From positions 310,001-374,000 of the forward strand of contig NZ_CP119809.1 of NCBI RefSeq assembly GCF_029338395.1: a stretch of DNA of 64,000 nt, in the 5' to 3' direction. The notes beneath the pieces are model-generated. The model was not told the DNA's origin. It saw only the letters and a list, made by a program, of their open reading frames with translations, and searched no databases. This DNA comes from Halorussus caseinilyticus. Lineage in GTDB: Archaea > Halobacteriota > Halobacteria > Halobacteriales > Haladaptataceae. This document shows positions 3,537 through 41,498 of the stretch, one piece after another. A program made the position numbers and the translations under genes. Every line of letters starts with the position of its first letter. Within the stretch, counting starts at the first letter, position 1.

Positions 3537-3537
3537 C

Positions 3538-10152: not shown

Positions 10153-10243
10153 CTGCTGTGCCTCCGGCGAAGTGGTGTCTCTGCTGTCATCTGTCGTGTA
10201 GTCGTGGCTGTTCGCGGTTCGTCTCGTCCGGCCGCGAGCGGCG

Positions 10244-24873: not shown

Positions 24874-24924
24874 TCGGTCGTCCTCCTCGAATCGAGTTCA
24901 TGGCCGTTCTTCTATTCTTTCTGG

Positions 24925-24932
24925 TATTTAAG
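24925..24932 (-). promoter_or_regulatory. TATA-like box of the tadC-pilin operon
   Basis: Reads CTTAAATA on the minus strand. Transcription would begin near 24902 and give a ~29-nt leader carrying the GGAGG site before the GTG at 24873. It shows that tadC can be expressed without an adjacent ATPase gene. Confidence 0.5.
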
Positions 24933-25036
24933 GGCTAGTACTATCGCGCGACCGGTGGCCCTCTCGACGCCCCGACGCCGATTTCGGATTGTTCGTCCGC
25001 TTCACGGTTCTCTTCCGGTGCTCACACCGGAGCGGC

Positions 25037-25041
25037 TATAT
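25037..25041 (+). promoter_or_regulatory. TATA-like element of the E2 gene
   Basis: TATAT, 27-31 bp ahead of GTG 25068, the spacing typical of leaderless haloarchaeal transcripts. It decides in favour of 25068 rather than 25053 as the start. Confidence 0.4.
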
Positions 25042-25067
25042 CGGGGTACTCCGTGTATCACAGTACC

Positions 25068-26666
25068 GTGGCGTACATTGTCAAGATGCCAAAGCTGGGG
25101 TTGGAGATGGACACCGGGACCGTCAACGAGTGGTTCGTGACGGAGGGAGAGGCGGTTTCGGAGGGGAGCGTCATCGCCGAAATCGAGTCGGCGAAGACGA
25201 CCGCCGAGGTCGAGGCGCGCGAGGACGGCGTACTACGACGCGTGTTACTCGACGTGGGCGAGGAGACCGAACCCGGCGGACCGATGGCTATCGTCGCACC
25301 GGCCGACGCCGACATCGCCGACCTCGTGGCCGAGGCTGGCGGTGAGTCCGCCGCATCCGACGCGGAAGAGTCCGAACCGGAGACCGCCGAAGCCGCGACA
25401 GCCACCGCGAGCGCGGGAAGCCAGACGGCGACGGAATCCTCCGGGACCGAGGAGGTCACGGCGTCTCCCCGAGCGAGGAGACGCGCCGAGGAGTTGGGCA
25501 TCGACCTCGCCGTCGCCGAGGGGACCGGGCCGCAGGGTGCAGTCACCGAGGGAGACGTGGAAGCGGCGGCGGACGAACGCGACGACTCGTCCGAACCGGT
25601 CAAGGCCTCGCCGCGCGCCGAAAAGCGCGCCGACGAACTCGACGTTGCGCTCTCGACGGTGGACGGGACGGGACCGCAGGGGGCAGTCACTGAAACGGAC
25701 GTGGAGAGTGCCGCCGAGTCGGTTTCCGAGTCAGCGTCGGCGGGTTCCGAGTCGGAGTCGCCAGCGTCACCCTCGGACGCGGAGTCGGCCGCCGACCCCG
25801 AGACGCCGACCGAGCGCGTCTTCGCCGCGCCGAGCGCGCGCCGACTCGCGCGCGAACTCGGCGTGAACGTCGGCCGAATCTCCGGTAGCGGGCCGGGCGG
25901 TCGAATCACCGAGACTGACGTGCGGGCCGCGACCGACTCGGAGGCCGGGACCGCCGAGGTTCCGGGGACCCGAACGGAGGACCGCCCGCTCTCGGAGATG
26001 CGGCGCACCATCGCCGAGCGACTCGGGCAGAGCTACCGGGAGGCCGTCCACGTCACCGAACACCGCGGGGCGGACGCCGAGGAGTTGCTCGCGGCGGCGT
26101 CGGCGTCCGACGAGGCACTGGACCCGGACGTGTCGGTGACGGACATCTTGTTGGTCGCGCTCTCGGCGGCCCTCGACGAGAACCCGGAGTTCAACGCGAC
26201 CTTCGAGGACGACGTTCACCGTCTCCGGGAGGCACACGACGTTTGCGTCGCCGTGGACATCGACGCGGGGTTGATAGCCCCGGTCGTCCGCGGCATCGAC
26301 TCGCTGTCGCTCTCGGAAATCGCCGCGGAGCGCGCGCGGGTGACTCAGCGCGCGCTCTCGGGGGAGTACTCGATGGAAGACCTCTCGGGCGGGACGATAA
26401 CCGTCTCGAATCTCGGCGTGCTGGGCGTCGAGTCGTTCGACCCAGTTATCAACCCGCCGCAAGTGGCCATCCTCGGCGTCAACGCCATTCGACCCGAGGT
26501 GGTGCCCACCGAGGGCGGTGAGGTCGCCGTCCGCAAGCGAATCTCGTTCTCGCTGTCGTTCGACCACCGGGTCGTGGACGGGGCGGACGCCGCGCGCTTC
26601 CTCGGGTCGCTGGTCGAACACGTCGAAAATCCGTGGCCGCTCGTCGTCGCGGCCGGTGAGCGTTGA
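25068..26666 (+). CDS. 2-oxoacid dehydrogenase E2, dihydrolipoamide acyltransferase, with three E3-binding domains
   Basis: The product (532 aa from this start) has a lipoyl domain at residues 1-~80 with the lipoylated lysine at K43 (ESAKTT). Three peripheral subunit-binding (E3-binding) domains follow at about 132-168, 180-217 and 254-290, each with P-R/S-A-RR/KR, then GTGPQG or GSGPGG. A catalytic acyltransferase domain covers ~305-532 with active-site DHRVVDGAD (H500). Acidic linkers join the modules. The start is GTG 25068 (reads MAYIVKMPKLGLEM), because a TATA-like element at 25037-25041 lies 27-31 bp upstream and predicts a leaderless mRNA. Another in-frame GTG sits at 25053. It converges with the AcoX-like gene and should assemble with the E1 subunits encoded at 27722-29763. 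No E3 gene is in the window. Confidence 0.92.
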   Translation: MAYIVKMPKLGLEMDTGTVNEWFVTEGEAVSEGSVIAEIESAKTTAEVEAREDGVLRRVLLDVGEETEPGGPMAIVAPADADIADLVAEAGGESAASDAEESEPETAEAATATASAGSQTATESSGTEEVTASPRARRRAEELGIDLAVAEGTGPQGAVTEGDVEAAADERDDSSEPVKASPRAEKRADELDVALSTVDGTGPQGAVTETDVESAAESVSESASAGSESESPASPSDAESAADPETPTERVFAAPSARRLARELGVNVGRISGSGPGGRITETDVRAATDSEAGTAEVPGTRTEDRPLSEMRRTIAERLGQSYREAVHVTEHRGADAEELLAAASASDEALDPDVSVTDILLVALSAALDENPEFNATFEDDVHRLREAHDVCVAVDIDAGLIAPVVRGIDSLSLSEIAAERARVTQRALSGEYSMEDLSGGTITVSNLGVLGVESFDPVINPPQVAILGVNAIRPEVVPTEGGEVAVRKRISFSLSFDHRVVDGADAARFLGSLVEHVENPWPLVVAAGER

Positions 26667-26689
26667 GACGGTCGGGGGACGCCCCTCGA

Positions 26690-27721
26690 TTAGTTCGTCC
26701 GAAACGGCTCTTCTCCGCGAAAATACCCGTCGGCCGCGGCGCGTTCGAACGCGTCCTCGACGCGGACGATTCGGGGACCGTCGGCGACCGGACGCACGGA
26801 GACGACGGCGTCTCGCACTTCGAGGTCGCGTTCCCCGTCGGCGCTGACCACGCCCGAGGAGACCTCGAACGCGAACGCCTCGCCGTCGTCGAGGACGCGG
26901 TGTTCGCCGACCGCGACCCGCGAGAGGACGCCGGGCACGGTGACGGCCCGCACGGTCCGGGCGGAGTCGCCGGGACCGAGGCGGAACCCGACGCCGCCGG
27001 GGTCGTCGGGCCGGTGGGTGACGAGACCGCCCGCGATACCGGAGAGACCGATTTCGTCGGACGCGGCCCGCGAGACCACGCCGCCGACGACGTTCGACGG
27101 GTCGAGAATCGCCCGCGTCCCGACGAACGACCGGTCCAGTATCCCGAGGGTTGCGAGTCCGCGAATCCGGCGAGTGCCGGATTCGCGGTCGTCGGTGGCG
27201 TCGCCTTCCACGACCGCTTCGACGGTGCCGTGGCGCGTCGTCACCTCGTCGGCCGGAACTGCGCCGCTCCCGACGAGTGCCGCGGCCATCCCGGCGACGG
27301 TGCCGTCAACCGTCGTCGGAACGACGTTGTTCGTCCCGGTCGAGACGCTGACGACCGGTACGTCGCCGATTGCGTGAGCGACATCGCGGTTCGTCCCGTC
27401 ACCGCCGAGAACGACCGCGATGTCCGTCTCGGCGGCGAAGTGCTTCGCCGCAGTGCGCGTGTCTTCCCCGGACGCCGTCACCGTCATGTCGAGACTGCCG
27501 ACCGAGAGCGCGTCGGGAGCGTCGGCGACGATGCCCTCGGCGAGACCCGTCGCGTCGGGCATGACCAGCACCTCGGCGTCGTCCAGTAGCGTGAGTCCTT
27601 CGAGGACGCACTCGGCGGTGCGGCGCTTCGCGTAGTTGTTACTGACGCTGGCACCGCCGGTGAGGCGTCTGATGTCGCGCCCGGCGGCCGGGTTCACGAC
27701 GAGACCGATTGTCGTCGTCAC
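26690..27721 (-). CDS. acoX: ATP-NAD/AcoX-like kinase family protein
   Basis: A 343-aa protein of the ATP-NAD kinase/AcoX superfamily. The N-terminus GLVVNPAAGRDIRRL and the glycine-rich VVLGGDGTNRDVAHAIGD motif (near residue 105) are the signature of this fold. STGTNNVVP follows. In bacterial acetoin operons AcoX accompanies the E1 genes, and its exact reaction is not settled. Here it starts with GTG directly after the E1-beta stop (TAA then GTG), so it is the third gene of the E1 operon. The context supports AcoX over a housekeeping NAD kinase. The C-terminal half is a beta-rich domain as in NAD kinases. Confidence 0.8.
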   Translation of the reverse strand: MTTTIGLVVNPAAGRDIRRLTGGASVSNNYAKRRTAECVLEGLTLLDDAEVLVMPDATGLAEGIVADAPDALSVGSLDMTVTASGEDTRTAAKHFAAETDIAVVLGGDGTNRDVAHAIGDVPVVSVSTGTNNVVPTTVDGTVAGMAAALVGSGAVPADEVTTRHGTVEAVVEGDATDDRESGTRRIRGLATLGILDRSFVGTRAILDPSNVVGGVVSRAASDEIGLSGIAGGLVTHRPDDPGGVGFRLGPGDSARTVRAVTVPGVLSRVAVGEHRVLDDGEAFAFEVSSGVVSADGERDLEVRDAVVSVRPVADGPRIVRVEDAFERAAADGYFRGEEPFRTN

Positions 27722-28732
27722 TTATACGATGCGGTCGATTGCCGCCTTCACGTCGTCGCCGTGGGGCAACACTTCGTCTTCGAGCGCCGGACTGAAGGGG
27801 ATGTGAACGTCGGCGACCCCGACGCGCTGAATCGGCGCGTCGAGGCTGTAGAATGCGTTCTCCATGACGCGAGAGGCTACTTCGGCGTGGGTCCCGTACG
27901 ACAGGGGACTCTCGTCGGCGACCACGAGGCGTCCCGTCTTGTTCACGCTCTCGACCAGCGTGTCGGTGTCCAGCGGGTAGAGCGACTGGAGGTCGATGAC
28001 TTCGACGCTCGTCTCCCCGGCGAGTTCCTCGGCGAGTTCGAGCGACTCGCCGACCATCCGCTGGGTCGCCACGACGGTCACGTCCTCGCCCTCGCGCTCG
28101 ACGCTCGCCTCGCCGAGCGGAATCGTGAAGTTCTCGTCCAGCGGCACCTCGCCCGTCTGCTCGTACATCATCTTGTTCTCGAACACGAACACCGGGTCGT
28201 CGGACCGAATCGCGGTCTTGAGCAGTCCCTTCGCCGAGGCTGGCGACCCCGGTGCGACCGCCATCACGCCGGGGAAGTGGGCGAACCACGTGTGGAGCGT
28301 GCCCGAGTGTTGGCTGGCGGCACCCATCCCGCCGCCCTCGGTCGTTCTGACGGTGACGGGCATCTCCGTCTTCCCGCCGAACATGTACCGGTTTTTCGCC
28401 ATCTGGTTGATTATCTGCTCGGCGCAGACGCCGAGGAAGTCGGCGAACATGATTTCGACGACCGGCCGCGTTCCGGTCGCCGCCGCGCCGACCGCCGCCC
28501 CCATGAACCCGGCCTCGCTGATGGGGGTGTCGCGGATGCGGTCTTCGCCGAAATCGTCGACCAGTCCGCTCGTCACCTCGAAGACGCCGCCGAACTCGCC
28601 CACGTCCTCGCCGACGACGAACACGTCGTCGTCCTGTTCCAGTTCCTCTCGCATGGCGAGGCGAATCGCCTCGCGGACCGTCATCTCCTCGGTGTCCGCC
28701 GGTCCGGACCCGGCCGCGGTGTCGGTACTCAT
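27722..28732 (-). CDS. 2-oxoacid dehydrogenase E1 component, beta subunit
   Basis: A 336-aa transketolase-like beta subunit. Landmarks are VREAIRLAMREELEQDD, VFVVGEDVGEFGGVF, ISEAGFMGAAVGAAATG and RTTEGGGMGAASQHSGTLHT, all typical of pyruvate/acetoin/branched-chain E1-beta. The C-terminal transketolase domain includes EVIDLQSLYPLDTDTLVESV. The ATG at 28732 overlaps the E1-alpha stop as ATGA. With E1-alpha it forms the thiamine-diphosphate decarboxylase that passes an acyl group to the lipoyl arm of E2. Substrate specificity cannot be read from the sequence; the AcoX neighbour points to acetoin. Confidence 0.92.
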   Translation of the reverse strand: MSTDTAAGSGPADTEEMTVREAIRLAMREELEQDDDVFVVGEDVGEFGGVFEVTSGLVDDFGEDRIRDTPISEAGFMGAAVGAAATGTRPVVEIMFADFLGVCAEQIINQMAKNRYMFGGKTEMPVTVRTTEGGGMGAASQHSGTLHTWFAHFPGVMAVAPGSPASAKGLLKTAIRSDDPVFVFENKMMYEQTGEVPLDENFTIPLGEASVEREGEDVTVVATQRMVGESLELAEELAGETSVEVIDLQSLYPLDTDTLVESVNKTGRLVVADESPLSYGTHAEVASRVMENAFYSLDAPIQRVGVADVHIPFSPALEDEVLPHGDDVKAAIDRIV

Positions 28733-29763
28733 CGGTCCTCACCCCCGTCGGTCCGCATTCGGTCGGCAAACGCACTAATCTCCGGGACGGTCTGGTTGAA
28801 CATGTCGTCGTACGCCTCGCTCGGGTCGGGGTAGTCGGCTTCTTTCGCTTTCGCGGCCGCCGCTTCGATTTCGTCTCGGGCCGTCGCTTCCATCTCGTCG
28901 AACTCCGATTCGGTGAGCGTCCCGGCCTCGACCAGTCGCCCTTTGAACGACTCGATGGCGTCGCGGTCCTGCCAGATTGCGACATCCTCGTCGGTCCGGT
29001 AGGGTTGCTGGTCGCCCTCGAAGTGGCCGCGGTAGCGGTACGTCTCCGCTTCGATAAACGTCGGTCCCTCGCCGTCGGCGGCGCGCTTGCGGGCCTCGCG
29101 TACCGCCTCGTAGACGGCCGTCACGTCCATCCCATCGACCGTGAAGCCGGGGATGTTGTACGCCTCGGCCGTCTCGCTGAGATTCTGGACGTTGTGTTGC
29201 TTCTCGACGGGCGTCCCCTCGCCGAACTGGTTGTTCTCGACCAAGAACACCGCCGGGAGGTCCCACGTCGCGGCGATGTTGATAGCCTCGTGAATCTGGC
29301 CCTGTGCGACGGCCCCGTCGCCGAAGAACGCGAGCGCGACGGTCCCCTCGTCGTTGTATTGGGACGTGAGGGCGGCACCCGTCGCCAGCGGCGGTCCCGC
29401 GCCGACGATGCCGTTCGCGCCCAACATTCCGGCGTCCACGTCCGCGATGTGCATCGACCCGCCCTTCCCGTTGCAGTAGCCGTCGGCTTTGCCGTACAGT
29501 TCCGCCATCATCTCCTCGGGGTCGAGTCCCTTCGCGATGCAGTGGCCGTGACCGCGGTGGGTACTCGTGATGTAGTCGTCGTCTTCCAGCGCGGCACAGG
29601 CCCCGACGCCGACGGCCTCCTCGCCGATGTAGAGGTGGACGAATCCGGGAAGTTCCCCGTCGCCGAACAGTTCCCCCGCTTTGCTGTCGAACGCGCGGAT
29701 GGTCAGCATCCGGCGCATCGCTTCTCTCTGGCCGTCCTCCGTTTCGAGGTCGATTACTACCAT
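28729..29763 (-). CDS. 2-oxoacid dehydrogenase E1 component, alpha subunit
   Basis: A 344-aa thiamine diphosphate enzyme. The start is ATG 29763 (MVVIDLETED); a longer frame would need TTG or GTG. The TPP-binding motif runs from GDGAVAQGQ near residue 147 to VENNQFG near 175. GKGGSMHIAD, near residue 95, is a typical E1-alpha active-site segment. It is the first gene of the E1alpha-E1beta-AcoX operon and is coupled to E1-beta by an ATGA overlap. The AT-rich region at 29815-29935 upstream probably holds its promoter. The product is cytoplasmic and catalyses oxidative decarboxylation or cleavage of a 2-oxoacid or acetoin. Confidence 0.9.
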   Translation of the reverse strand: MVVIDLETEDGQREAMRRMLTIRAFDSKAGELFGDGELPGFVHLYIGEEAVGVGACAALEDDDYITSTHRGHGHCIAKGLDPEEMMAELYGKADGYCNGKGGSMHIADVDAGMLGANGIVGAGPPLATGAALTSQYNDEGTVALAFFGDGAVAQGQIHEAINIAATWDLPAVFLVENNQFGEGTPVEKQHNVQNLSETAEAYNIPGFTVDGMDVTAVYEAVREARKRAADGEGPTFIEAETYRYRGHFEGDQQPYRTDEDVAIWQDRDAIESFKGRLVEAGTLTESEFDEMEATARDEIEAAAAKAKEADYPDPSEAYDDMFNQTVPEISAFADRMRTDGGEDR

Positions 29764-30021
29764 GCGATGCACGTCACTCGGTGCCAATACTCAAAGACTG
29801 TTGCGCAAACTGACGGAAAAATTTGTACAAAATATGGGTTATTCGGCCTGAGACTCGGGAAAATCGCCTCGGAACCCGGACCGATTCGGACATGCGTATA
29901 ATGTCTAAAGCAATGAAAAAATTTGGTAAACGGTGAGAGATAATTGCGACGTTCGAGACCGACGCCGCGAGCGCCTCCGTCGTCGGTCTCCCGCCGGAGA
30001 GCATCCGCCGAACCGCGAGTT

Positions 30022-33003
30022 TCAGTACGTGAGGCTAAACCACTCCGTGTCGTTCGCCCCGCCGTTCTTCTCGTACGTGAAGTAGTACTCGACGTTGTCG
30101 CCCGAACTGAAGTCGCCGACCACGTAGTCCGGACTCGTGTCGAGCGTGTGCGTGTCGCCGCTCGGGTTGTTCATCCGGTAGTTGTACTGCGTGCCTCCGT
30201 TGACGGTGTAGTGAACGTCCACCCAGTCCGAACCGACGTTCGAGACGAACTCGAACAGCAGTTCGTCGATGGCGGTATCGCCGTCGGAGCCGTCGATTCG
30301 GGTGGCACTCTGGCTGTAGTCACTGTTCCCCGACGAGTCGGTGGTGACGCTGACGGTGTTGGACGCGCCGGATTCGTTGCCCGCGCCGTCCACGGCGGTG
30401 ACGTAGAAGTCGTACGTCGTACCGCTGGCGAGACCGGAGACGGTCGTCATGGTCGTCCCCGCCGAGACCTGCTGGCTCCGTGTCCCGTCGACGTAGACGT
30501 TGTAGTGGTCAACGCCCGAACCGCTGTCGCTCGCGGCGTCCCACGCGAGACTGACCGACGAACTGGTGTGACCGGTCGAACTGAGGTTCGACGGCGTGGT
30601 CGGGGCCGTCGTGTCGGATGGGTCGCTGCTGTCGCCCGTACTCGTCGCCATCGAGTTGGCCGGAACCGAGAGCGACGTGCCGTCCGAGAAGGTCACCGTG
30701 ATGGACGCGTCTTCGCCGTTGTAGGCCACGTAGGTCGTCTCGGTTCCGTCGTCGAACGCGTAGGCGAGCGGATAGTCCGCGGTCACCGACGGGTCCGGGT
30801 TCCCCATCGCGTCGATGTTGTAAATCCAGTGGTAGGTGTGGGCCTTCGTCTCGCCAGCCTCCGGCGTGTAGTTTTTCGCCGACTGGAACATGTCCTTGGC
30901 GTCGCTCACGTTCGAGAACGCCCGGTAGTTCCACATGATGTCCGGCCAGTAGTCCCACGCGCCGCCGTTGTCGTCGTTGGCAACCGCTTCGCTGTAGTTG
31001 CGTTCGGCCAAGTCGGCGTCCCACCCGAGGTACAGCGAGTGACCGCCGAACGGCAGGTAGTTGATGCCGTGAATCGCCTCGGAATCGCTGGAGAACCACG
31101 TCCCGTAGGCGTACTTGTCACCCCACACGATGCCCGCGGTGTCGTGGTCCCAGCCGTCGGGTTGGTTCTGGTTGTCCACGTCGAACCAGTATTCCATCGA
31201 GGCGAGCATCTCGTGAGTGTAGAGATACGCCGCCCAGTTCAGCATCTCGTCGTTGCCCGTGAAGACGGCCCACTGGACCATCGCGCCGTAAGCGTGGATG
31301 GCTTCCGAGGACGACTCTTGGTTGTTGCCATCCGCGAACTCCGCGGTGCCCGCGGCCCACGAGTGGCCGCCGAACGGACTGAAGTTCCGCAGGAACGGGA
31401 ACGAGTCGGCGGGGTTGTCCGCCGGTTCTTGGGTATTCGCGCCGTTCGGTCGTTCCCAGTTCGCGTAGTCGCGGACGAGCAGGTCGACCATCCCGCCCCA
31501 GTTGCTGTCCGCGCTCCACGACTCGTCGTTGCGGGCGAGTTCGGCCGCGCCCCGAACGAAGTAGCCGTAGTGGAAGTGGTGGTCGTTGAGACTGCTGGCC
31601 GCGCCGAACGAGTCCGGGTAGCCCAGTAGCGTGCCCCACTGGTCGTTGTAATAGAAGAGGTTCTCGCTCTCGCCGTTGCTGGCGGTGAGCCAGTCCTCCA
31701 GTTCCGTCCGGATGGCGTCGTGCAGGGCGTCTCGCTTGCTCGTGTTGCCGACTTGGTCGGCGATTGGTGCCGCCTCGGCCATCCGACCGTAGTCCTTCCC
31801 GGTCCAGTAGGTTCCGCTTCCTTGACTGTCGTCGTAGCTCGCCGACACCTCGTTGACGTAGCTCGATAGCTCCGAACTGTCGTAAGACCCTTCGTCGGGC
31901 AGGAACGGGAGGATGCCGCGGAAGGGGTGGGTCGTCGTGAACGACGACCCGCTGGTCGTCTTCATCGTACCGCGCGGGCACTCGTAGGTGTAGGCCAGCG
32001 TCGAGTCGTCGAGATACTTGTGTTGGTGGGGATACAGTCCCGTAATCGTTCCGCTGGCCTGACTCTCGGGCTTGGTCGTCGTGTTGAACGAGTAGGTCGT
32101 CCGGACCTCGCCAGCGGCTTGGTCGTAGGTCGGACTGACACGGGTCGCATCGCCCGCGCCAGTGTCGGTGATGAAGTTGTACGCGTACTGCTCGAAGGTG
32201 TCGAGGGTCGAAGACGTGCCGTCGGGGAGGACGGCAATCGTCACGTATCCACCCGTGAGGTCGTTGGTCAGCGTGGCCGACCCGACGCCAGACCAGTCGT
32301 CGCCCGAGGGCGCGAACAGTCCGTAGTGTTTGCCGTCGTGGGTCAGTCCGAGGACGTTCCCCCGGTCGTCCCAGACGGTGGGAGCCGTCCGGAATTCGAG
32401 TTCGGCACCGCCGCCGTCGTACTCACAGAAGATGTACGGTGAACCCTTCGTCAACGAGGCGGTGAGGGTCGTCCCGGTGCCGGTGTCCCACTTCAGCGTC
32501 ACCGACCAGTCGCTGTACCCATCGACTCGCGTATCGGCGAACGTGGTCGCGGTGTGGCCCAGCGTGAAGTCGCGCTCGACGTTCATCTTCGCGTCCGCTC
32601 CGGGGTAGTTCCACGTCGTCGGATGGCCGACCTGCAAACCGGTCCCGTCGGCCAGTGCGAACCCCGGATGGAAGAAGAGGTTCTCCGAGTACCCGGTGAC
32701 GAGCGCAGACGACCACCAGTCGTTGGACGGCATCGGTCCCCCGACGTTTCCGGTCGTGTACAGCGTCGTCGGCGGTTCGTCCTCGCCCGATGGCTTCGCG
32801 TGGGTGTAGCTTCCGTTGCCGACGCTGTGAATTCCGCTCGCGGCCGTGACCGGTTCCGGTATCGACGCCGACCCGGCTAACCCGACGGCACCGAGCGCCT
32901 TGCAGTAGGTTCGCCGCGACAGCGACGGCGTGTCGTTCGATTCGTCTCGTTCGTTCGACTGACTCCGCCAGTCGGATTCCGTTTCGTCGGTGTGTTCGTC
33001 CAT
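30022..33003 (-). CDS. Tat-exported GH81 endo-beta-1,3-glucanase with Fn3 and CBM
   Basis: A 993-aa secreted enzyme. A polar N-terminus leads to a Tat motif, LSRRTYCKALGAVGLAG, around residues 27-45. The catalytic part (~60-770) has GH81 landmarks: NDWWSSALVTGYSENLFFHP, then LNDHHFHYGYF, and GNNQESSSEA at ~555-566, where the acidic residues of the GH81 active site lie. A fibronectin type III domain spans ~795-889. A C-terminal beta module (~900-993, with VDVHYTVNGGTQYNYRM and the ending DTEWFSLTY) resembles CBM56-like glucan-binding modules. GH81 enzymes cut beta-1,3-glucans such as laminarin or fungal wall glucan. The ATG at 33003 is followed directly by the exported-protein signature, and a TATATAAATT box lies ~40 bp upstream. 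It sits tandem with the GH97 gene. Confidence 0.88.
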   Translation of the reverse strand: MDEHTDETESDWRSQSNERDESNDTPSLSRRTYCKALGAVGLAGSASIPEPVTAASGIHSVGNGSYTHAKPSGEDEPPTTLYTTGNVGGPMPSNDWWSSALVTGYSENLFFHPGFALADGTGLQVGHPTTWNYPGADAKMNVERDFTLGHTATTFADTRVDGYSDWSVTLKWDTGTGTTLTASLTKGSPYIFCEYDGGGAELEFRTAPTVWDDRGNVLGLTHDGKHYGLFAPSGDDWSGVGSATLTNDLTGGYVTIAVLPDGTSSTLDTFEQYAYNFITDTGAGDATRVSPTYDQAAGEVRTTYSFNTTTKPESQASGTITGLYPHQHKYLDDSTLAYTYECPRGTMKTTSGSSFTTTHPFRGILPFLPDEGSYDSSELSSYVNEVSASYDDSQGSGTYWTGKDYGRMAEAAPIADQVGNTSKRDALHDAIRTELEDWLTASNGESENLFYYNDQWGTLLGYPDSFGAASSLNDHHFHYGYFVRGAAELARNDESWSADSNWGGMVDLLVRDYANWERPNGANTQEPADNPADSFPFLRNFSPFGGHSWAAGTAEFADGNNQESSSEAIHAYGAMVQWAVFTGNDEMLNWAAYLYTHEMLASMEYWFDVDNQNQPDGWDHDTAGIVWGDKYAYGTWFSSDSEAIHGINYLPFGGHSLYLGWDADLAERNYSEAVANDDNGGAWDYWPDIMWNYRAFSNVSDAKDMFQSAKNYTPEAGETKAHTYHWIYNIDAMGNPDPSVTADYPLAYAFDDGTETTYVAYNGEDASITVTFSDGTSLSVPANSMATSTGDSSDPSDTTAPTTPSNLSSTGHTSSSVSLAWDAASDSGSGVDHYNVYVDGTRSQQVSAGTTMTTVSGLASGTTYDFYVTAVDGAGNESGASNTVSVTTDSSGNSDYSQSATRIDGSDGDTAIDELLFEFVSNVGSDWVDVHYTVNGGTQYNYRMNNPSGDTHTLDTSPDYVVGDFSSGDNVEYYFTYEKNGGANDTEWFSLTY

Positions 33004-33039
33004 CGTGTTCGACCGGAACTACGATTCGAGATGTAGAAA

Positions 33040-33049
33040 TATATAAATT
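33040..33049 (-). promoter_or_regulatory. TATA box of the GH81 gene
   Basis: Reads AATTTATATA on the minus strand in a strongly AT-rich patch (33015-33090). The distance to ATG 33003 predicts a short leader of about 10-15 nt. The gene therefore has its own promoter and is not only read through from the GH97 gene. Confidence 0.55.
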
Positions 33050-33231
33050 ATTTAGAATTAATTTAGTTTTATGTTGTTACTAAATGATTTTTATTGGCTA
33101 TGGCCAGTCTCACCTGATGAAACCGAGGGAACGCATGAGCTGACGGAGCAGAGAGAACTGTTCGCCAACGGTTCCGGCGAACACGGGACCGAAAGACGTG
33201 AGCGAGCGAAGTACCCACGACTCGGAGTCGG

Positions 33232-36200
33232 TCAGTACACCCCGAAGTTGGCGAACTCGGCGATGCCTTCGCCCGAGGCGTGCGAGCAGGTGAACATCGC
33301 GGCGTCCTGCGTACTCGCGGCCGACCCGAGGTCCACGCTCCCGATTTGGGTCCAGTCGCCGTCGGACTTGTCCTTCGTGTAGTAGGCCGTGAACGTCGTG
33401 CCCGACTTCTCGATGGCGAGCCAGACCGGTTGGTAGGTGTTCGACGCGCGGGCGTCGGTGTCGAGGTGGCCGTCGCCGTCGGCGTCCCACGCGAACTGGA
33501 CGCCGTTCTGGGGCGTGGCGTGGAGCGCGACGTAACCGGTGGCGCTCCCCGGGTCCGTCGCGTCGTTGCGAATCATGATGCCGGACTTGGCCCAGCCGTC
33601 GGTGTCCTCTTGGCCCTTGAGCTGGACCTCCACCCAGTCGTCGGTCCCCACGGCGTCGCGGTCCACGAGCGCGCCGTAGGCGTCAGCGCCGGTCCACATG
33701 TCCTCGCCAGCGGCGTTGACGTGGAGGTCGGTGCCGTTCTGGTCGAGACCGAACTCGGCGGCGTTCGTGGCGAACGTCTCGTACTGGCTCGGGACGGGGC
33801 GCGTCATCGGGATGCGGTCGTCCACGCGGAAGTCGGCGAACGTGGCGACGCCGCGAGCGTCGCTGTGCGAGCAGTGGACCATCGCGGCGTCCTGCGCGCT
33901 CGCGGCCGACCCGACCGTACAGGTGCCGACCTGCGTCCACGTCGAACCGCCGTCGGTGCTGTAGTAGCCGGTGAAGTCGCTTCCCGACCGGTCGAGTCGC
34001 AGGCGGACGCCAGCAGAGACGCCGCTCGCTTGGGTCCCGGTGTCGAGGTAGCCGTCGTCGTCGCTGTCCCACGCCAACTGAACGCCGTTGTTCGGCGTGA
34101 CGAACAGGCCGACGTAGCCTGTCGAACTTCCCGCGGCCGTCACGTCGTTGCGGACGACGATGCCGGATTTCGCCCACCCGTCGGTGTCCTCCTGATACGG
34201 GACCTCGACTCGGACGCGGCCGTCGGTGCCGACGGCGTCGGCCTCGTAGACGGCGGTGTAGTCGTCGGCACCGGTCCACACGTCCTGTCCGGTCGAGACG
34301 ATGTTGAACTCGGTCGCGTCGTGGCCGGGTTCGCCGTAGGAGGCCGACGAGTAGGTTTCGTAGTGGCCCGGAACCGGGTCTTCGTTCCCCGTCGCGGGCG
34401 TCAGGTGGACCGCCTGCCCGCCGCCCTCGGGCAGGTCGGCGACCAGCGAGTCGGTGTCCTCGATTTCGAAGTGGCGGACCTCGACGGCCGACTCGTAGCC
34501 GTAGGTCCTCGCTTTGTAGCCGTCCTGATAGACGTGGGCGTCGTAGGTGCCCGAGTCGAGGAAGTCCAGCGGAAGGCGAAGTCGGTCGGGGTCGGCGACG
34601 GCGGAGCCGACCCACCAGTCGTCGCCGTCGCGTCTGGCGATGGAGACGTGCTGGCCGATGTCGCCCGCCAGCACCTTCGTCTCGTCCCAATCGACAGGCA
34701 CGTCTTTGACGAACTGGAAGGCTTCGAGGTCGTAGTCGTAGTTGACGGGCCGGTCCGTCACCATCTGGACGCCGCTGTGGAAGACGACCAGTTGGGCGAG
34801 TTCGCGCGCTCTGGTGTTGTGGACGCGGGTGTCCTTGTACGCGCGGTAGGTCAGGTCGAACAGACCGGTGTTGTAGTCGGTCGGCCCCGCCAGCATCCGG
34901 GTGAACGCCAACTCGGGCGTGTGTTCCGGCGGGTTGCCCTGCCCGCGGAAGTTCTGGTACTCCATGCCCGAGACGCCCTCACGGGACATGAAGTTGGGGT
35001 AGGTCCGGCGCTTGCCCGTCGGCTTGATTGGTTCGTGGGCGTTGACCATAATCCCGTACTCGGCGGCGGTTTCGACCACCTTCTGGTAGTGGTTGACCAT
35101 CGCCTGACAGTGGTGGTTGTACCGGGTCTCGGAGGCGTCCATCAGGACGCCGTTCTCGTTGACGTACCCCGACTTGATGGCCTCGACGCCCGCCGACTGG
35201 TACATCGAGAACGCGTCGTGGAGTTGCCCCTCGTAGGAGTACTGGTCATGGTCTTTGACGTTCGAACCGGTCTCGTTGTGGGCCATGAAGTGGACGCCGT
35301 TGTTCGTCGCGTAGTCCGTGACCTCCTGCCAGTCGAACTGGGAGTGGGTCTCGGTGAAGTTCATATCCTCCCAGTTGAACGGGCCGTCCTCGTCGGCGGG
35401 CGCGTTGTCGCCGTCGCCCCACCCGGTGTTCCACCCCTCGGCCATCACGTTCGGAATCCCGTGTTCGCTGGCGAAGTCGATGTAGTCTTTGACGTTCTCG
35501 GTGTTAGCCCCCACGTCGGGACCGGGTGCCCACGTCGATTTGCCGATGTGCAACTCCCACCAGACGCCGCAGTACTTCTGGGGTTCTATCCACGAGGTGT
35601 CGCTGTACGCGCAGGGGTCGTTGAGGTTCAGCACGATGTCGGATTCGAGCAAGTCGCCGGGCGTCTCGCCGAGCATGAACACCCGCCACGGCGAGGCGTG
35701 GGGTGCCGACCCCTTGACCCGCGTGCCGTCGGGCAGGGGAACCAAGTCCGACTCGAAGCGGGTCGCCCGGCCGTTCCACCGCGTGACGGTCATCCCGGCC
35801 CAGTCGGTGAGGTTGGCCTCGTGGATACTCATGTAGCAGTCGCTCGCTACCCGCATCGTGAACGGCGTGTTCACGCCGTCCACGGTCGATTTCCGGTCGT
35901 GATTGCCGTTCCCGTCGCCCTCGCCGCTGATTTGAGAGAGGGGGTCCTCGTTGTAGAGGTACTCGTAGTTGTTCCAATTGTTGGCAATCCACCAGCTGGT
36001 GTAGTCGCCCGCGAAGTCGAACCCGGTGTTCTCCTGCGTGACGGCGAAGTCGCCGACGCCCGAGTTCTCGGGGATGGTGTACCGGAACGCAACCCCGTCG
36101 TCGTACGCGCGGAAGGTGAGATTGAGGTTTCGGCCGGTCGCGGCGTGGCGCAGTCCGACCGTCAACTCCTCGTAGTTGTCCCGAACCGACGACTGCTCGC

Positions 36201-36567
36201 CCCACACCGGTTGCCACGTCGTGTCCGCGGAGTCGGTGGTGGTGCCGGTCACCTCGAAGCCATCGTCGAGGTTCTCCTGATTGGCGAACTCGAAGCCCAG
36301 CGTCGAGTCGTTCAGGGGTTGGGTCCCCTTGTAGGAGATATTGTAGTAGGGCGTCCCATCGACGAGTTTGAACGTCACTTGCGCGTCCCCGTTCGGAGAG
36401 ACGACCGATTGAGTCGCGTCCGTCGAACCGGCGAGTACCCGCTCCGTCGCCGCGCCCGCCGGGACGGAAATCGCCGCGCCCGCTCCGACGAGTTGCCCAA
36501 GGAACTCCCGCCTGTCGTAGCCTTCGTCTGCTGACGTGTTCACATCTCTCATGTCTCGATTCGGCAT
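33232..36567 (-). CDS. Tat-exported GH97 alpha-glycosidase with two C-terminal repeated beta domains
   Basis: I choose ATG 36567 (MPNRDMRDV), because a TATA-like TTTTATTTATT at 36587-36598 lies 20-31 bp upstream; an in-frame ATG at 36606 precedes that box and is unlikely. The 1111-aa product has a Tat signal (YDRREFLGQLVGAGAAISVP). The GH97 N-terminal beta-sandwich, catalytic barrel and C-terminal part run to about residue 710. The motifs HNETG (~429), NAHEPIKPTG (~511) and SREGVSGMEYQNF (~529) match the glutamates used by SusB-type inverting enzymes. Two similar ~190-residue domains follow (each with DVWTGADDY or DMWTGADAY, then QEDTDGWAKSGI), probably lectin-like jelly rolls. GH97 enzymes act on alpha-glucosides or alpha-galactosides. 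It is likely extracellular or wall-associated. Confidence 0.87.
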   Translation of the reverse strand: MPNRDMRDVNTSADEGYDRREFLGQLVGAGAAISVPAGAATERVLAGSTDATQSVVSPNGDAQVTFKLVDGTPYYNISYKGTQPLNDSTLGFEFANQENLDDGFEVTGTTTDSADTTWQPVWGEQSSVRDNYEELTVGLRHAATGRNLNLTFRAYDDGVAFRYTIPENSGVGDFAVTQENTGFDFAGDYTSWWIANNWNNYEYLYNEDPLSQISGEGDGNGNHDRKSTVDGVNTPFTMRVASDCYMSIHEANLTDWAGMTVTRWNGRATRFESDLVPLPDGTRVKGSAPHASPWRVFMLGETPGDLLESDIVLNLNDPCAYSDTSWIEPQKYCGVWWELHIGKSTWAPGPDVGANTENVKDYIDFASEHGIPNVMAEGWNTGWGDGDNAPADEDGPFNWEDMNFTETHSQFDWQEVTDYATNNGVHFMAHNETGSNVKDHDQYSYEGQLHDAFSMYQSAGVEAIKSGYVNENGVLMDASETRYNHHCQAMVNHYQKVVETAAEYGIMVNAHEPIKPTGKRRTYPNFMSREGVSGMEYQNFRGQGNPPEHTPELAFTRMLAGPTDYNTGLFDLTYRAYKDTRVHNTRARELAQLVVFHSGVQMVTDRPVNYDYDLEAFQFVKDVPVDWDETKVLAGDIGQHVSIARRDGDDWWVGSAVADPDRLRLPLDFLDSGTYDAHVYQDGYKARTYGYESAVEVRHFEIEDTDSLVADLPEGGGQAVHLTPATGNEDPVPGHYETYSSASYGEPGHDATEFNIVSTGQDVWTGADDYTAVYEADAVGTDGRVRVEVPYQEDTDGWAKSGIVVRNDVTAAGSSTGYVGLFVTPNNGVQLAWDSDDDGYLDTGTQASGVSAGVRLRLDRSGSDFTGYYSTDGGSTWTQVGTCTVGSAASAQDAAMVHCSHSDARGVATFADFRVDDRIPMTRPVPSQYETFATNAAEFGLDQNGTDLHVNAAGEDMWTGADAYGALVDRDAVGTDDWVEVQLKGQEDTDGWAKSGIMIRNDATDPGSATGYVALHATPQNGVQFAWDADGDGHLDTDARASNTYQPVWLAIEKSGTTFTAYYTKDKSDGDWTQIGSVDLGSAASTQDAAMFTCSHASGEGIAEFANFGVY

Positions 36568-36705
36568 GGCTTTTAGTGGGAAGAAAAAATAAATAAAAGT
36601 TTTCATTGGAATAAACCCGCGCCGCGTTCGGTCGCCGGTCGGATACCGTCTTGGCCGTTACAGATTTTAATTGTTAGCTCATTGGTGTTTGTGGCAGTGT
36701 GAAAG

Positions 36706-37290
36706 ATGACAGGAAAGCAAACAGACGGCGAGCGACTGAATCGGAGACGGTTCCTCAAAAGCGCGACTGCGACGGCGGCGGGATTCGCGGCGACTGCGGC
36801 GTCGGGAACGGCCGCGGCGGGGGCGGTTCCGGCCGGAGAGCGCACCGCGAGCGTGCGCGAAGCTCGAAGCGCGCTCGACGCCCACGCTGGCGACGTTCTC
36901 GCGACGCTCGAAGACGACGGCGTCTTCGACGCCGCCGACGCGACCCGACTCGCCAGCGCCGGTGACGCCTCGCTTCGCACGTTCGACGGCGACTACTCCG
37001 AGGAACTCCGGGTGAAACTCGACGTGGACGGCGGGTTCCTCGACGTGGCCGTCGAACGCGACGACGGCCGGGCCTACGCGTTCTACTACCCGGACGACGA
37101 GGACACCCGGTACCTCTACCGGACCGACGGCGAGCGATTCGACGTTGGCACCGACAACTGCTGTAAGACCGACTGCTACTGCACTCACACGGTGTGTAGC
37201 GCGGCGTGCTACGAGCGATGCAACGTCTGCTGTCTGTGCGGGCAGGACAACTGCTCGTGGGAGGAGTACTGCGACGAGTGCATCTGCTGA
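36706..37290 (+). CDS. Tat-exported protein with C-terminal cysteine-rich peptide (halocin-like architecture)
   Basis: A 194-aa product. The Tat signal is LNRRRFLKSATATAAGFAAT (residues ~11-35). The middle (~40-150) is an acidic alpha/beta domain. The last 44 residues contain 14 cysteines: NCCKTDCYCTHTVC, then SAACYERCNVCC, and a tail ending DECIC. A Tat leader, a pro-domain and a Cys-dense C-terminal peptide is also the architecture of halocin C8 precursors, though the cysteine spacing differs and I see no sequence match. It could instead bind metal or be a disulfide-stabilised surface peptide. The TATA-like ATTTTAATT at 36664-36672 is divergent from the GH97 promoter. Residues and signal are seen; the role is unknown. 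Confidence 0.85.
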   Translation: MTGKQTDGERLNRRRFLKSATATAAGFAATAASGTAAAGAVPAGERTASVREARSALDAHAGDVLATLEDDGVFDAADATRLASAGDASLRTFDGDYSEELRVKLDVDGGFLDVAVERDDGRAYAFYYPDDEDTRYLYRTDGERFDVGTDNCCKTDCYCTHTVCSAACYERCNVCCLCGQDNCSWEEYCDECIC

Positions 37291-37578
37291 CCTGACGCGT
37301 CTCGAAGTACGTCGATACCGACGGCACCCGACGCCGACGCGCAACTGTCCCGAGAGTCGCGCCACCGGTAAGTACCCCGGCGACATGGGATACGAACCAT
37401 TCGATTCGTGCTGATATTTCAGGCCTCGCGGTGGGATGTGTCTCCGGTGAGGGTGTCGTCCGCGTCCGGCCCTCCCCCGCTGTCGGCTTCCGCACGGAAA
37501 TTACGGGAGACACGTCAGAATTATGTGCAACGTTATCAATAAGCAACCTTTCTACGTGGGGACGCCGAACCCCGTTCC

Positions 37579-38583
37579 ATGACTCACCAGTCCGACGACC
37601 CGAACCGACCGCCCAAGTACGGCGGACCGAGAGACCCCTCCGACGAGCGCGCCGGAGTTCGAATCGGCACCCGGTCGGACCCGAACCACGCGCCGGACGG
37701 CCGTCGATACGGTAGTGCGTTCCGGTCTCTCGGGGACGCCCCCGACGGTCAATCCGCCAGCGCCGCCCCCGGTTCGGAGGTGGGCCAGCGCGAACGGCCG
37801 TCGCCCCCCGATTCGCCGGTTCCCAACGACCTCCTCGAAGCGTTCGCGGCACTCGACTTCGAGACCGACGCCCAGAAGCGCGTCTACCGCTACGTCGAAC
37901 GGCAAGGCGTCGCGTCCGACGAAGAAGTCCACGAGCAAATCGACTTGCCCACCGAGGACCTCGCCATCGCAATCCAGTGGCTCGTCAAGCAGAACTACCT
38001 CGAAGCGGACGACGGGATACTCCGCGCCGTCCGCGGTACGGATGTCGAGATGACGTACGCGATGGGGGGCCTCGACGTGACCATTCGCCCGGCCGGACAG
38101 GAGGACCTCGCGGACCTCGTGACGCTCATCCGCGACGTGACCGACGGGCGGACGTACGTCGTCGCCGAGAGCATCGCCGCGCAACTCGCCTCCCAGGGGA
38201 CCGTCATCCGCCACACGGACACCCGCTCGCGTCTGTTCTTCGTCGCCACGGTGGACGACGCGACGACGGGCGACTCGCAACTCGTCGGGTGGGCGCATCT
38301 CACCCTCCCCGGCATCGAGTACCTCGACCACACCGCCGAACTGACCGTTGGCGTGCGGTCGGACTTGCGTCGGCGGGGTATCGGAAGCCAACTCTCACGG
38401 ACCGCGCTCGCTTGGGCCGCCGCCAACGGCTACCACAAGGTGTACCAGAGCCTCCCCGGTACGAACCGGGCGGCCATCGACTTCCTCGGGAATCACGGGT
38501 GGACAGTCGAGGCGGTTCGTCGGGACCACTACCGCATCGACGGTGAGTTCGTGGACGAGGTGATGATGGCAGTTGGGTTGTAG
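37579..38583 (+). CDS. GNAT-family N-acetyltransferase with N-terminal winged-helix-like region
   Basis: A 334-aa cytoplasmic protein. The first ~85 residues are polar and disordered. Residues ~85-155 (LLEAFAALDFETDAQKRVYRYV, ending AIQWLVKQNYLEADDGILRAV) look like a winged-helix module. Residues ~165-334 are a GNAT domain, with TIRPAGQEDLADLVTLIRDV at its start, GVRSDLRRRGIGSQL as the acetyl-CoA pyrophosphate loop, and FLGNHGWTVEAVRRDHYRID near the end. Family members acetylate small molecules or protein N-termini; the substrate here is unknown. It lies between two exported Cys-rich proteins on the same strand, so a role in modifying or protecting against them is possible but unsupported by motifs. 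Its start is ATG 37579, with no rival. Confidence 0.85.
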   Translation: MTHQSDDPNRPPKYGGPRDPSDERAGVRIGTRSDPNHAPDGRRYGSAFRSLGDAPDGQSASAAPGSEVGQRERPSPPDSPVPNDLLEAFAALDFETDAQKRVYRYVERQGVASDEEVHEQIDLPTEDLAIAIQWLVKQNYLEADDGILRAVRGTDVEMTYAMGGLDVTIRPAGQEDLADLVTLIRDVTDGRTYVVAESIAAQLASQGTVIRHTDTRSRLFFVATVDDATTGDSQLVGWAHLTLPGIEYLDHTAELTVGVRSDLRRRGIGSQLSRTALAWAAANGYHKVYQSLPGTNRAAIDFLGNHGWTVEAVRRDHYRIDGEFVDEVMMAVGL

Positions 38584-38669
38584 GTCGGTCGAGGGACGTG
38601 AGACGACCGAACGGGGTCGGTCGTCCGATTTGTGGCGATTTTCCGGGTACCCGGCTGCGGACGCAAACA

Positions 38670-38676
38670 TATAAAA
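38670..38676 (+). promoter_or_regulatory. TATA box of the small Cys-rich gene
   Basis: TATAAAA in an AT-rich stretch (38665-38698). The predicted transcript starts near 38700 and contains the GAGG site before ATG 38732. Confidence 0.5.
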
Positions 38677-38731
38677 TCAGAACAATGATTAAATTAATGT
38701 GTGTTGGGCGACTATTTTGAGGCGGTCGTTC

Positions 38732-38992
38732 ATGAAACGACGCACCGCACTCAAGCGACTCGCCGCTGGCGCGGGCTCGACCTTCGCGCTGGTCAGCACT
38801 GCAACTGCCGAATCGTACCCCGAACCAGAGAACCTAGACGACGTCACACCCCAGTACCGCGTCACCAAGGCTGGCGTCGAAGAAATCGACTCAGACGAGT
38901 CACTCGACTCCGAAGGCGATTGTACCGTCTACTATTGCTGTAACTGTCCGTACGACTGTTACGACGGTTGCGAGTGCGCGGCGATGTGCTGA
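38732..38992 (+). CDS. Small exported cysteine-rich protein
   Basis: An 86-aa product starting at ATG 38732. The start is supported by GAGG at 38719-38722 and by TATAAAA at 38670-38676, which predicts a short leader; a longer frame from 38699 is rejected. The leader MKRRTALKRLAAGAGSTFAL is a Tat-like signal with weak consensus (A in place of F). A short acidic linker is followed by a C-terminal ~24-residue segment with eight cysteines (DCTVYYCCNCPYDCYDGC, then ECAAMC). Like the 194-aa protein upstream, it has a CC pair and ends on cysteine. It may be a secreted peptide or metal-binding peptide. The shared architecture suggests the two belong to one family of exported Cys-rich products. Confidence 0.75.
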   Translation: MKRRTALKRLAAGAGSTFALVSTATAESYPEPENLDDVTPQYRVTKAGVEEIDSDESLDSEGDCTVYYCCNCPYDCYDGCECAAMC

Positions 38993-39097
38993 ACGCCCCA
39001 TTCGTATTTTTAGTGGCGTGGTCACAACGGTAGCGGCGGTGCGCACTCGTCACCGGTCGAACGACGTCGTGATTATTGACTACTCTCGGTGGACGAA

Positions 39098-41311
39098 CTA
39101 CGCCCCCTCCCGCTTGACCCGTTCGACCGTCGCCGCCTCGTCGTTGCGCAAGTCGGCGAGGAACGCGAACAGTTCTTCGAAGTCGTCCATTCCCTCCTGT
39201 TCGAGATACTGGACGTACCGGTGCTTGCGGTGGAACTCCGCTTCGACTTTTGCGACGGGGCGGTCGGTCCGGTCGGCGAGGCGGTCGAAGAACCGCAGAC
39301 GACGCTCTTCGTTGCTATCACCTAACTGTGGGTGGTCGTAAGCAATAGAAAAGTTGCCGTCAGTGTCCCGGCGGGCGACCGTGTTCCAGTAGACCGTCGC
39401 GTCGTCTTTCTCGATTGCGCCGCACCGCGCCCGCGAGTCGAGTTCCTCGAACGCCGACTGCGAGAGCAGTTCGACCACCTCGCCGACGTACCGGTCGCCG
39501 TCCACCTTCCGGGGGAACACCACGAGGTCCAACTCCCGCAGGAGATAGGGTGGCAGGCCCTGCTCGACGACCCGATTCACCAGTTTCTCCACGTCCTCGG
39601 CGTGTGTGGTGCCGATGATGCCGTGACCGGTGTTCAAACTCTCGGCGAACGTACGGAAACTCGCGGGCGTGTTGATTTCCGCGATGACCTCCACGTCCGG
39701 ATTCAGGTAGTTGCACTCGGTCATCAGGTCGGCCATCGTCACGCGCTTGTAGTCGCTCTCGTGGTCGCGCGTCGTGAGCGAGACGCCCGTCTCGTGGGGC
39801 AGACGGACCTCCCGCGAGCCTTCGTCTATCGAAATCGGCCGGTCGCGGTACGGGATGAACGGCATGTGCGAATTCATCAAGGTCGTCTTTCCCGTGCCGG
39901 TCGGCCCGGAGAACAGCACGACCCCGTGATGCTCGTAGGCCTGCCAGAGCAGGGTCACGATTTCGGTCGAGAGACTGCCCGACTCCAGCAAGTCCACGGG
40001 CGTCATCGCCTCGGGCGCTTGCTTGCGGATGGAGATGTGGGGACCGTCCTCGCTGATGACGCCGAGGGCGACGGCGGCCCGAATCGTGACCGATTCGGGC
40101 ACGCCTTCGGGTCGGAGGTTGACCTTCGCGCTCGGGTTCGAGGCGTTCAACTCCGTGCCGTCGCTGGCGGCCATCTGCGTGACGACGTTGGCGAACGTCT
40201 CTTCGTCCTCGAACGTGAGGTTCGTCGGCGCGCGCTCGCCGTGACCGATTTCCCGGCCCCGCGGCACCACCTTGATGCGCTCGCCGACCCGGTTGGCCTC
40301 GATGTCCTCCAACAGGTCGTCCCGAATCGGGACCGTCAGCTTTCCGTGCCCGACGAAATCGCGCATCACGTAGTACACCAAGTCAGAGAGCCTGTCGGTC
40401 GAGAACCGGTGGTTCACCGGCGGCACGGCCAAGTCGTACTCCGCGAGGGCGGTCCGGACCCGATACTTCGCGGCGTCGAACCATGCTCTGGTGTTTCGCG
40501 CCGTCAATCGCCGCGAGAGGAAGGTCCGGGCGCGCTCGCGGACGAACCCCGCCCGGTCTTCGACCACGCCATCGACGTTGGTCTCCCAAATCCTATCCTT
40601 ACACTCCTGAATCAACTCCTCGTCGCCCGGCAGGAGGTCGGGTTCCAGCACGGCGTACTTGGTCGTAAAGGAGTCGTTGGCGAGCAGATGCTCCCGATAG
40701 ACCACGACCGGCACCCGAAACTCGCGGAAATCGACGGTGTGGGTCTCGACTCGCTCGCTGGCGAACCGCTCCAGATACTCGGCGTCGGCCGGGAACGCGG
40801 TGTCGGCGGGCGCGTAGTCGTCGGTGTGGACCACCAACCGCTCGCCCGCGGTGTCGGCCACGTCGATGCCGTCGTCCAACGCCAGCGGCGTCAGCGCGCC
40901 GAGACACCGCAGGTCGCGGAGCGCGAAGTACTCGACGCGCCGCCGGGCGTCGGGCGGCAGGTCGGTCAGGCGGTCCACGATGCGCCGGTACTTCGGTTCG
41001 AACCCGGCGGCCATGCGCTCGCTCGCGCCCTCGCGGGTCAGCGGACGCGCGAGGTTGGCGTCGGCGAAGTGGTCGGCCACGCGTTCGAGAGCGTCCTCGC
41101 CCGCGGGCGAGAGGCCGGGTTCCCGGACCCGGTAGTCGAACCCCTCGTCGGACTCGGCGATGGTGGCGACGACGCCGGGGTGGAGTTCGTACTGGGTTCG
41201 GACCTCGGGCGCGTACCACGCCTCGGGGTCGTCGGGTGGCTTGGGCGGTGGGACGACCGAAGGGTCCTCGCCCGTCGTCGGGCCTCCGCTCGCGGCCGCG
41301 GTATCGCTCAT
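39098..41311 (-). CDS. Type II/IV secretion system ATPase (TadA/PilB family)
   Basis: A 737-aa hexameric motor ATPase. Walker A is GPTGTGKTTLMNS at about residues 469-481. The Asp box and Walker B region (SIDEGSREVRLPHE, then DVEVIAEINTP) follow, with the His box GHGIIGTTHAED near 560. The long N-terminal region (~1-380) is typical of archaeal pilus ATPases. The start is ATG 41311, since ATTTAAAC at about 41336-41343 places it as a leaderless start; the upstream in-frame ATG overlaps that box. It powers assembly of pilin-like filaments on a TadC platform. No tadC follows; the nearest is 14 kb away at 22972-24873 on the same strand. Confidence 0.9.
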   Translation of the reverse strand: MSDTAAASGGPTTGEDPSVVPPPKPPDDPEAWYAPEVRTQYELHPGVVATIAESDEGFDYRVREPGLSPAGEDALERVADHFADANLARPLTREGASERMAAGFEPKYRRIVDRLTDLPPDARRRVEYFALRDLRCLGALTPLALDDGIDVADTAGERLVVHTDDYAPADTAFPADAEYLERFASERVETHTVDFREFRVPVVVYREHLLANDSFTTKYAVLEPDLLPGDEELIQECKDRIWETNVDGVVEDRAGFVRERARTFLSRRLTARNTRAWFDAAKYRVRTALAEYDLAVPPVNHRFSTDRLSDLVYYVMRDFVGHGKLTVPIRDDLLEDIEANRVGERIKVVPRGREIGHGERAPTNLTFEDEETFANVVTQMAASDGTELNASNPSAKVNLRPEGVPESVTIRAAVALGVISEDGPHISIRKQAPEAMTPVDLLESGSLSTEIVTLLWQAYEHHGVVLFSGPTGTGKTTLMNSHMPFIPYRDRPISIDEGSREVRLPHETGVSLTTRDHESDYKRVTMADLMTECNYLNPDVEVIAEINTPASFRTFAESLNTGHGIIGTTHAEDVEKLVNRVVEQGLPPYLLRELDLVVFPRKVDGDRYVGEVVELLSQSAFEELDSRARCGAIEKDDATVYWNTVARRDTDGNFSIAYDHPQLGDSNEERRLRFFDRLADRTDRPVAKVEAEFHRKHRYVQYLEQEGMDDFEELFAFLADLRNDEAATVERVKREGA

Positions 41312-41498
41312 GGGGACTATTCGTCCCGCCATCGGGTTTAAATTTTGAGATGGAGGTGGAGAGCGGGTCGGACGACGCGAGGAGTTCGACAGTCGCTAAA
41401 ATTATTGATTGGTTTCGGAGGAAGTCACTGGCCGCGTGCGTATCATGAGAGTCACCACCTCGCCAACACTAAAGCGCCGCCGCATCGACTATCGAAGC

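Follow-up and report, generated by a model that had tools for sequence, protein, structure and literature searches.

What is encoded by the two short cysteine-rich genes on either side of an acetyltransferase gene in Halorussus caseinilyticus (contig NZ_CP119809.1, positions 310,001 to 374,000)? The window, that is, the whole stretch of DNA analysed, is 64,000 nucleotides long, and coordinates without a prefix refer to it. The sequence-only reading had suggested a possible new peptide system with the architecture of halocin C8. The safest statement is that haloarchaea seem to export two precursor families whose tails are predicted disulfide-paired peptides under purifying selection. At a probability of roughly 0.6, proteins 1 and 2 are secreted precursors of two unrelated families, in which the tail is most likely the working peptide, a signal or an antimicrobial of the halocin or RiPP type. 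Archaeal peptide effectors that have been linked to genes are very few, and the two families would provide hundreds of clear candidates for such effectors in haloarchaea that can be grown in culture.

Two families of exported cysteine-rich precursors

Protein 1 (36706..37290, plus strand, 194 aa) is identified by its open reading frame and by family searches as a Tat-exported precursor with a haloarchaeal pro-domain. The Tat signal region (36706..36831) has the motif NRRRFLK followed by an Ala/Gly-rich stretch, and there is no lipobox cysteine. The pro-domain (36832..37158), outlined by the AlphaFold2 model and the pro-domain profile, is acidic, cysteine-free and about 105 residues long. All 14 cysteines are confined to the tail of 43 aa (37159..37287, residues 152-194), for which the parity of the cysteines predicts seven disulfides. 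In the AlphaFold2 model, residues 45-147 have pLDDT mostly 78-95 and form a predicted alpha+beta fold of three helices followed by a beta meander; the model of the tail is of low confidence (pLDDT below 50). No significant fold match to the pro-domain was found in the PDB (nothing below E 0.6 in Foldseek), and the re-examined matches had Z of at most about 5, which is a weak test of fold novelty.

Protein 2 (38732..38992, plus strand, 86 aa) has a Tat-like N-terminus with KRRTALKRL, a short acidic spacer and a tail of 23 residues (38921..38989, residues 64-86) with eight cysteines, and belongs to a second family. The gross structure given by the sequence-only reading, that is, leader, acidic domain and cysteine tail in the longer protein and Tat-like leader with an eight-cysteine tail in the shorter one, is thus correct at these coordinates; CC pairs and a terminal cysteine are present in both tails, as it had observed. 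Neither protein matches Pfam, NCBIfam, PHROG or PADLOC families, Tat-signal models excepted.

The protein 1 family has matches in 12 of the 18 congeneric genomes. A profile of 15 members was run on 392 Halobacteriales genomes and gave strong matches (best E below 1e-10) in 52, often in several copies, with at least up to eight matches per genome among the best eight candidates scored in each; weaker matches mostly covered the Tat signal alone. Across 295 genomes sampled from the whole phylum, the matches were confined to the same order. No homologues of protein 1 were found in phages or plasmids; close relatives of another member of the family lie on plasmid sequences from Halorussus limi and H. 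aquaticus, where they are annotated as hypothetical. About 120 loci were collected for comparison. A profile of the pro-domain only, with the signal and the tail left out, selected 123 ORFs, and one that looked spurious (L180) was dropped; a cysteine-rich tail is present in almost all of the 122 that were left. Tandem members occur, three in L100 and two each in L072, L079, L083, L108 and L109.

The protein 2 family is a separate, small one. Close relatives (66-67%) were found in two other Halorussus genomes, and the profile, extended by two tandem relatives from the genome G015, matched 27 places, spread over 10 of 15 Halorussus genomes. Two further copies reside in the same genome as the window (C1:1627491 and C1:1627954). 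In several species one to three genes of this family occupy one conserved chromosomal site surrounded by metabolic genes (L305-L311), and no recurrent specialised partner gene was seen at this site.

To judge from these searches, proteins 1 and 2 are not one-offs but represent two unnamed, uncharacterised haloarchaeal families, which appear mutually unrelated and yet share one layout, with a Tat signal first, then a conserved front and last a variable cysteine tail. The suggestion of a new peptide system is supported in this form, as two large families with the cysteine-tail architecture in 122 and 21 relatives, a recurrence beyond chance. The archaeal toxin survey of Makarova et al. (mBio, 2019) reportedly lists candidate families by their features, and some members may already have been flagged there.

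The resemblance to halocin C8 (TIGR04449) is real at the level of architecture. Both are Tat-exported haloarchaeal precursors with a middle domain, a cysteine-rich C-terminus and an even number of cysteines. However, membership in the halocin C8 family was rejected. TIGR04449 matches neither protein 1 nor protein 2 up to E 10, and no member of the wider family set (A2) up to 0.01, whereas the same model is positive elsewhere (L099:11647-12405 and other halocin-type ORFs). Conversely, halocin-type precursors score no better than E 0.1 with the pro-domain profile, versus 4.6e-25 for a family member in the same set. The tails of the protein 1 family are also acidic, with about 22% cysteine, and very diverse, whereas the halocin cores are longer and hydrophobic. 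A protein with a halocin C8-type domain is encoded in the same genome as the window (G000:C1:2712842-2713039, L232).

Compared by architecture, the precursors also resemble large-leader RiPP precursors such as those of the NHLP type, with a conserved leader-like domain, a strongly varied core and paralogous expansion; unlike these, they are Tat-exported, have no dedicated ABC exporter and have disulfide bonding as the main predicted modification. Archaeal lanthipeptides, in which Halorussus is rich, are likewise cysteine-containing haloarchaeal peptides, and are made with LanM enzymes (PMC10105419, PMC12144867). No LanM-type synthetase was recognised among the recurrent neighbours of the family loci.

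Cysteine parity and selection on the tails

The number of cysteines in the mature part is even in all 50 members of the protein 1 family that share less than 50% identity, in 120 of the 122 pro-domain-selected members, in 82 of the 84 with less than 40% identity (p about 4e-22) and in 65 of the 67 with less than 35%; one of the two odd members is a truncated ORF. Parity is also even in all 21 distinct proteins of the protein 2 family that were read. As a control, neighbouring genes with 4-22 cysteines were counted, giving 55 even and 33 odd. Since the number is even in nearly all members, the tails are predicted to be disulfide-paired. In the protein 1 family they have a median length of 48 residues and a median net charge of -5, which argues against cationic membrane peptides. 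The spacing of cysteines differs widely among paralogues.

In most pairs of close orthologues the tail is under stricter selection than the pro-domain. The pN/pS values for the tail and the pro-domain are 0.13 vs 0.45 (L051/L066), 0.03 vs 0.33 (L057/L058), 0.12 vs 0.26 (L097/L101) and 0.20 vs 0.60 (L072/L073); the exceptions are L069/L070/L071, with similar values in both parts, and L061/L077, where the tail is less conserved. As the tail is usually the more constrained part, it is probably the working one. Unlike arms-race toxins, the tails are stable among orthologues. Tail swapping in the manner of polymorphic toxins was considered and rejected: there was no clear case, and no close pro-domain pair with unrelated tails stood out. 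Across the family the identities of pro-domain and tail correlate weakly (r 0.33).

The following scheme is consistent with these data. The conserved front, that is, the folded acidic pro-domain of about 105 residues in protein 1 or the short acidic spacer in protein 2, would precede a C-terminal tail that varies between members and has all its cysteines engaged in disulfides. The tail would fold oxidatively in the cytoplasm, with the pro-domain acting as a chaperone of this folding ahead of Tat export; the pro-domain may also be the leader by which partner proteins specific to each tail recognise the precursor. The tail would then be released and act on some target. Because no cleavage motif is shared at the pro-domain/tail junction in the protein 1 family, this release is a step that we infer.

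The lack of a junction motif speaks for the main rival, a structural role at the cell surface. The tails could be disulfide-stapled surface or matrix domains (in adhesion, the S-layer or a biofilm scaffold) that stay joined to the pro-domain and act intact. Conservation of the tails between orthologues is in line with this, as are the many members that are single genes between housekeeping genes, and the position of the window copies in a pilus locus. However, there is no membrane anchor in the members of the protein 1 family and no lipobox or signal-region cysteine in any complete one; the spacing of cysteines is extremely diverse among paralogues; and one branch is associated with an enzyme tied to a C-terminal tryptophan (see below), which is typical of modified peptides. 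We therefore regard a surface role as unlikely, although it deserves more credit than the other rivals.

Metallothionein-like tails, exported loaded with metal, are improbable. The Tat system exports folded, cofactor-loaded proteins, and CC, CxC and CxxC motifs are common in the tails, as would be expected of metal binders. On the other hand, parity is even without a preference for multiples of four: the counts are split 60:60 between 4n and 4n+2, and this equality disfavours Cys4 sites. Histidine makes up only 1.5% of the tails, and no metal-binding family was matched in the Pfam and NCBIfam profile searches. A secreted precursor with a disulfide-paired working tail remains the preferred reading.

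A candidate tryptophan-modifying enzyme and other genes in sister loci

Most members, including both window proteins, have no evident immunity or modification gene alongside. In seven loci (L100, L144, L146, L148, L152, L153, L157), members of the protein 1 family adjoin a gene for a protein of 265-296 aa, here called P3. Its profile matches nonaprenyl diphosphate synthase in the PDB (E 6e-8), and its AlphaFold2 model (pLDDT 91.6) is similar to isoprenyl diphosphate synthases (Foldseek E 1e-6, TM about 0.7); P3 is thus modelled as an isoprenoid-synthase-fold protein. The first Asp-rich motif (FARM) is invariant, EY[YF]DI.DD..D.D, and KRxRP is kept. The second one (SARM) is degenerate, with Q..LD..Q instead of DDxxD.

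The precursors beside P3 end in tryptophan in eight of nine cases vs three of 113 for the other members (Fisher p 1.5e-9, the link having been spotted and counted in one data set). A semi-independent check is provided by L152, which had been listed as Trp-ending with no P3 known, and where a later search found an adjoining P3. The Trp-ending members without an adjacent P3 are those of L084, L134 and L140. Four further P3 genes were found: one in L195, two in the genus g37 without a Trp-ending precursor as a neighbour, and one fragment near a contig end. In L195 (5148-6853) P3 adjoins an unrelated Tat protein ending in NPNNSWI, and a homologue of the window acetyltransferase is next to P3.

ComQ has the first Asp-rich motif and lacks the second one, and PalQ prenylates a C-terminal tryptophan (PMC10853753). 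The seven sister loci are similar to the ComX/ComQ and PalX/PalQ systems in that they encode a protein of the isoprene-synthase fold whose FARM is present and whose SARM is degenerate, and eight of their nine precursors end in the residue that PalQ modifies. No sequence family match of P3 to ComQ was found. Unlike ComX and PalX, the precursors are archaeal, Tat-exported and disulfide-rich, and the window locus has neither the enzyme nor the terminal residue: P3 has no match in the genome of the window, and both window proteins end in cysteine. By analogy, the occurrence of P3 beside Trp-ending precursors leads us to predict C-terminal tryptophan prenylation in archaea. The broader proposal, somewhat short of an even chance and so tentative, is that haloarchaea may produce, from precursors with shared pro-domains, a large class of peptides that are exported by Tat and have all their cysteines in disulfides; one branch of these peptides would be prenylated at the C-terminal tryptophan by a ComQ/PalQ-like enzyme to give lipidated pheromones or antimicrobials. 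If P3 does modify the terminal tryptophan, lipid signalling of the ComX type would reach archaea. The even-cysteine rule and this one partner enzyme lead to immediate predictions for mass spectrometry.

Genes for an ABC-2 ATPase and permease are near members or directly downstream of them in L055, L065, L090, L095 and L110, and an ATPase gene in L154. By analogy with halocin C8 and modified peptides, and backed by P3 and these ABC-2 genes, a secreted peptide effector appears to be the most likely role of the tails. In L095, a family member and two pairs of ABC-2 transporter genes are next to a Tat protein of 281 aa (7222-8067), which has a ten-cysteine C-terminus of another type.

Two other recurrent neighbours, P1 and P2, were rejected as dedicated partners. 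These are HExxH lipoproteins, some without the motif, in about ten family loci, and a two-TM CxxC protein in seven; both are widespread families, so that their enrichment near the precursors is not specific. Among the HExxH lipoproteins of L093, L125, L141 and L155, three of the four have lost the second histidine, and this loss suggests binding rather than proteolysis. ORFs with a hydrophobic cysteine-rich end (PCGPCLPNLNCW...CDPCTGPAPLC) were observed near a HExxH lipoprotein gene (L273:550-1428, L284:821-2992). L099:5009-5911 and its homologues encode a two-TM protein with EYTGxNRCxPCT...VESCC, which belongs to no Pfam family and is ubiquitous in haloarchaea (330 of 382 genomes).

The pilus locus and the acetyltransferase

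The window genes lie in an insertion hotspot (22972..41332), as follows from comparison with the related loci L222 (in G004), L091 and L092. An archaeal pilus ATPase gene (39098-41332, minus strand) and its partner, a TadC-like gene (22972-24366, minus strand), are direct or almost direct neighbours in relatives but lie 14.7 kb apart in the window, and proteins 1 and 2 are encoded in this interval. The interval between the two pilus genes harbours a protein 2 homologue alone in G009, a protein 2 homologue with other small inserts in G012, and a hydrolase gene with an orthologue of the acetyltransferase gene (69%) in G004. The cargo of the hotspot therefore varies between Halorussus species, and the pilus operon is split in the window. 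As the cargo differs in these three genomes, proteins 1 and 2 and the acetyltransferase are best read as independent cargo.

The acetyltransferase of the GNAT family (37579..38583, plus strand, PF00583 E 7e-10) also contains a winged helix. The proposal that it modifies or protects the cysteine proteins did not stand: it is a diverged paralogue of a ubiquitous haloarchaeal acetyltransferase, which all 18 congeneric genomes encode, and none of the other family members in our set of loci has it as a neighbour; on this distribution it was rejected as a partner. A single halocin-like toxin unit of all three genes, with the acetyltransferase for modification or immunity, would account for their being neighbours on one strand, but is the least likely explanation of all, given this distribution, the 288 and 148 bp that separate the genes, the acetyltransferase of G004 with neither cysteine protein nearby, and protein 2 without the acetyltransferase in G009 and G012.

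The ABC transporter at 41445-43252 was also rejected as a dedicated partner, as it lies beyond the pilus ATPase gene and is also found near that ATPase in L092, which has no protein 1. Beside the pilin genes there are five consecutive very large genes on the minus strand (1086-19757), encoding proteins of 736-2204 aa.
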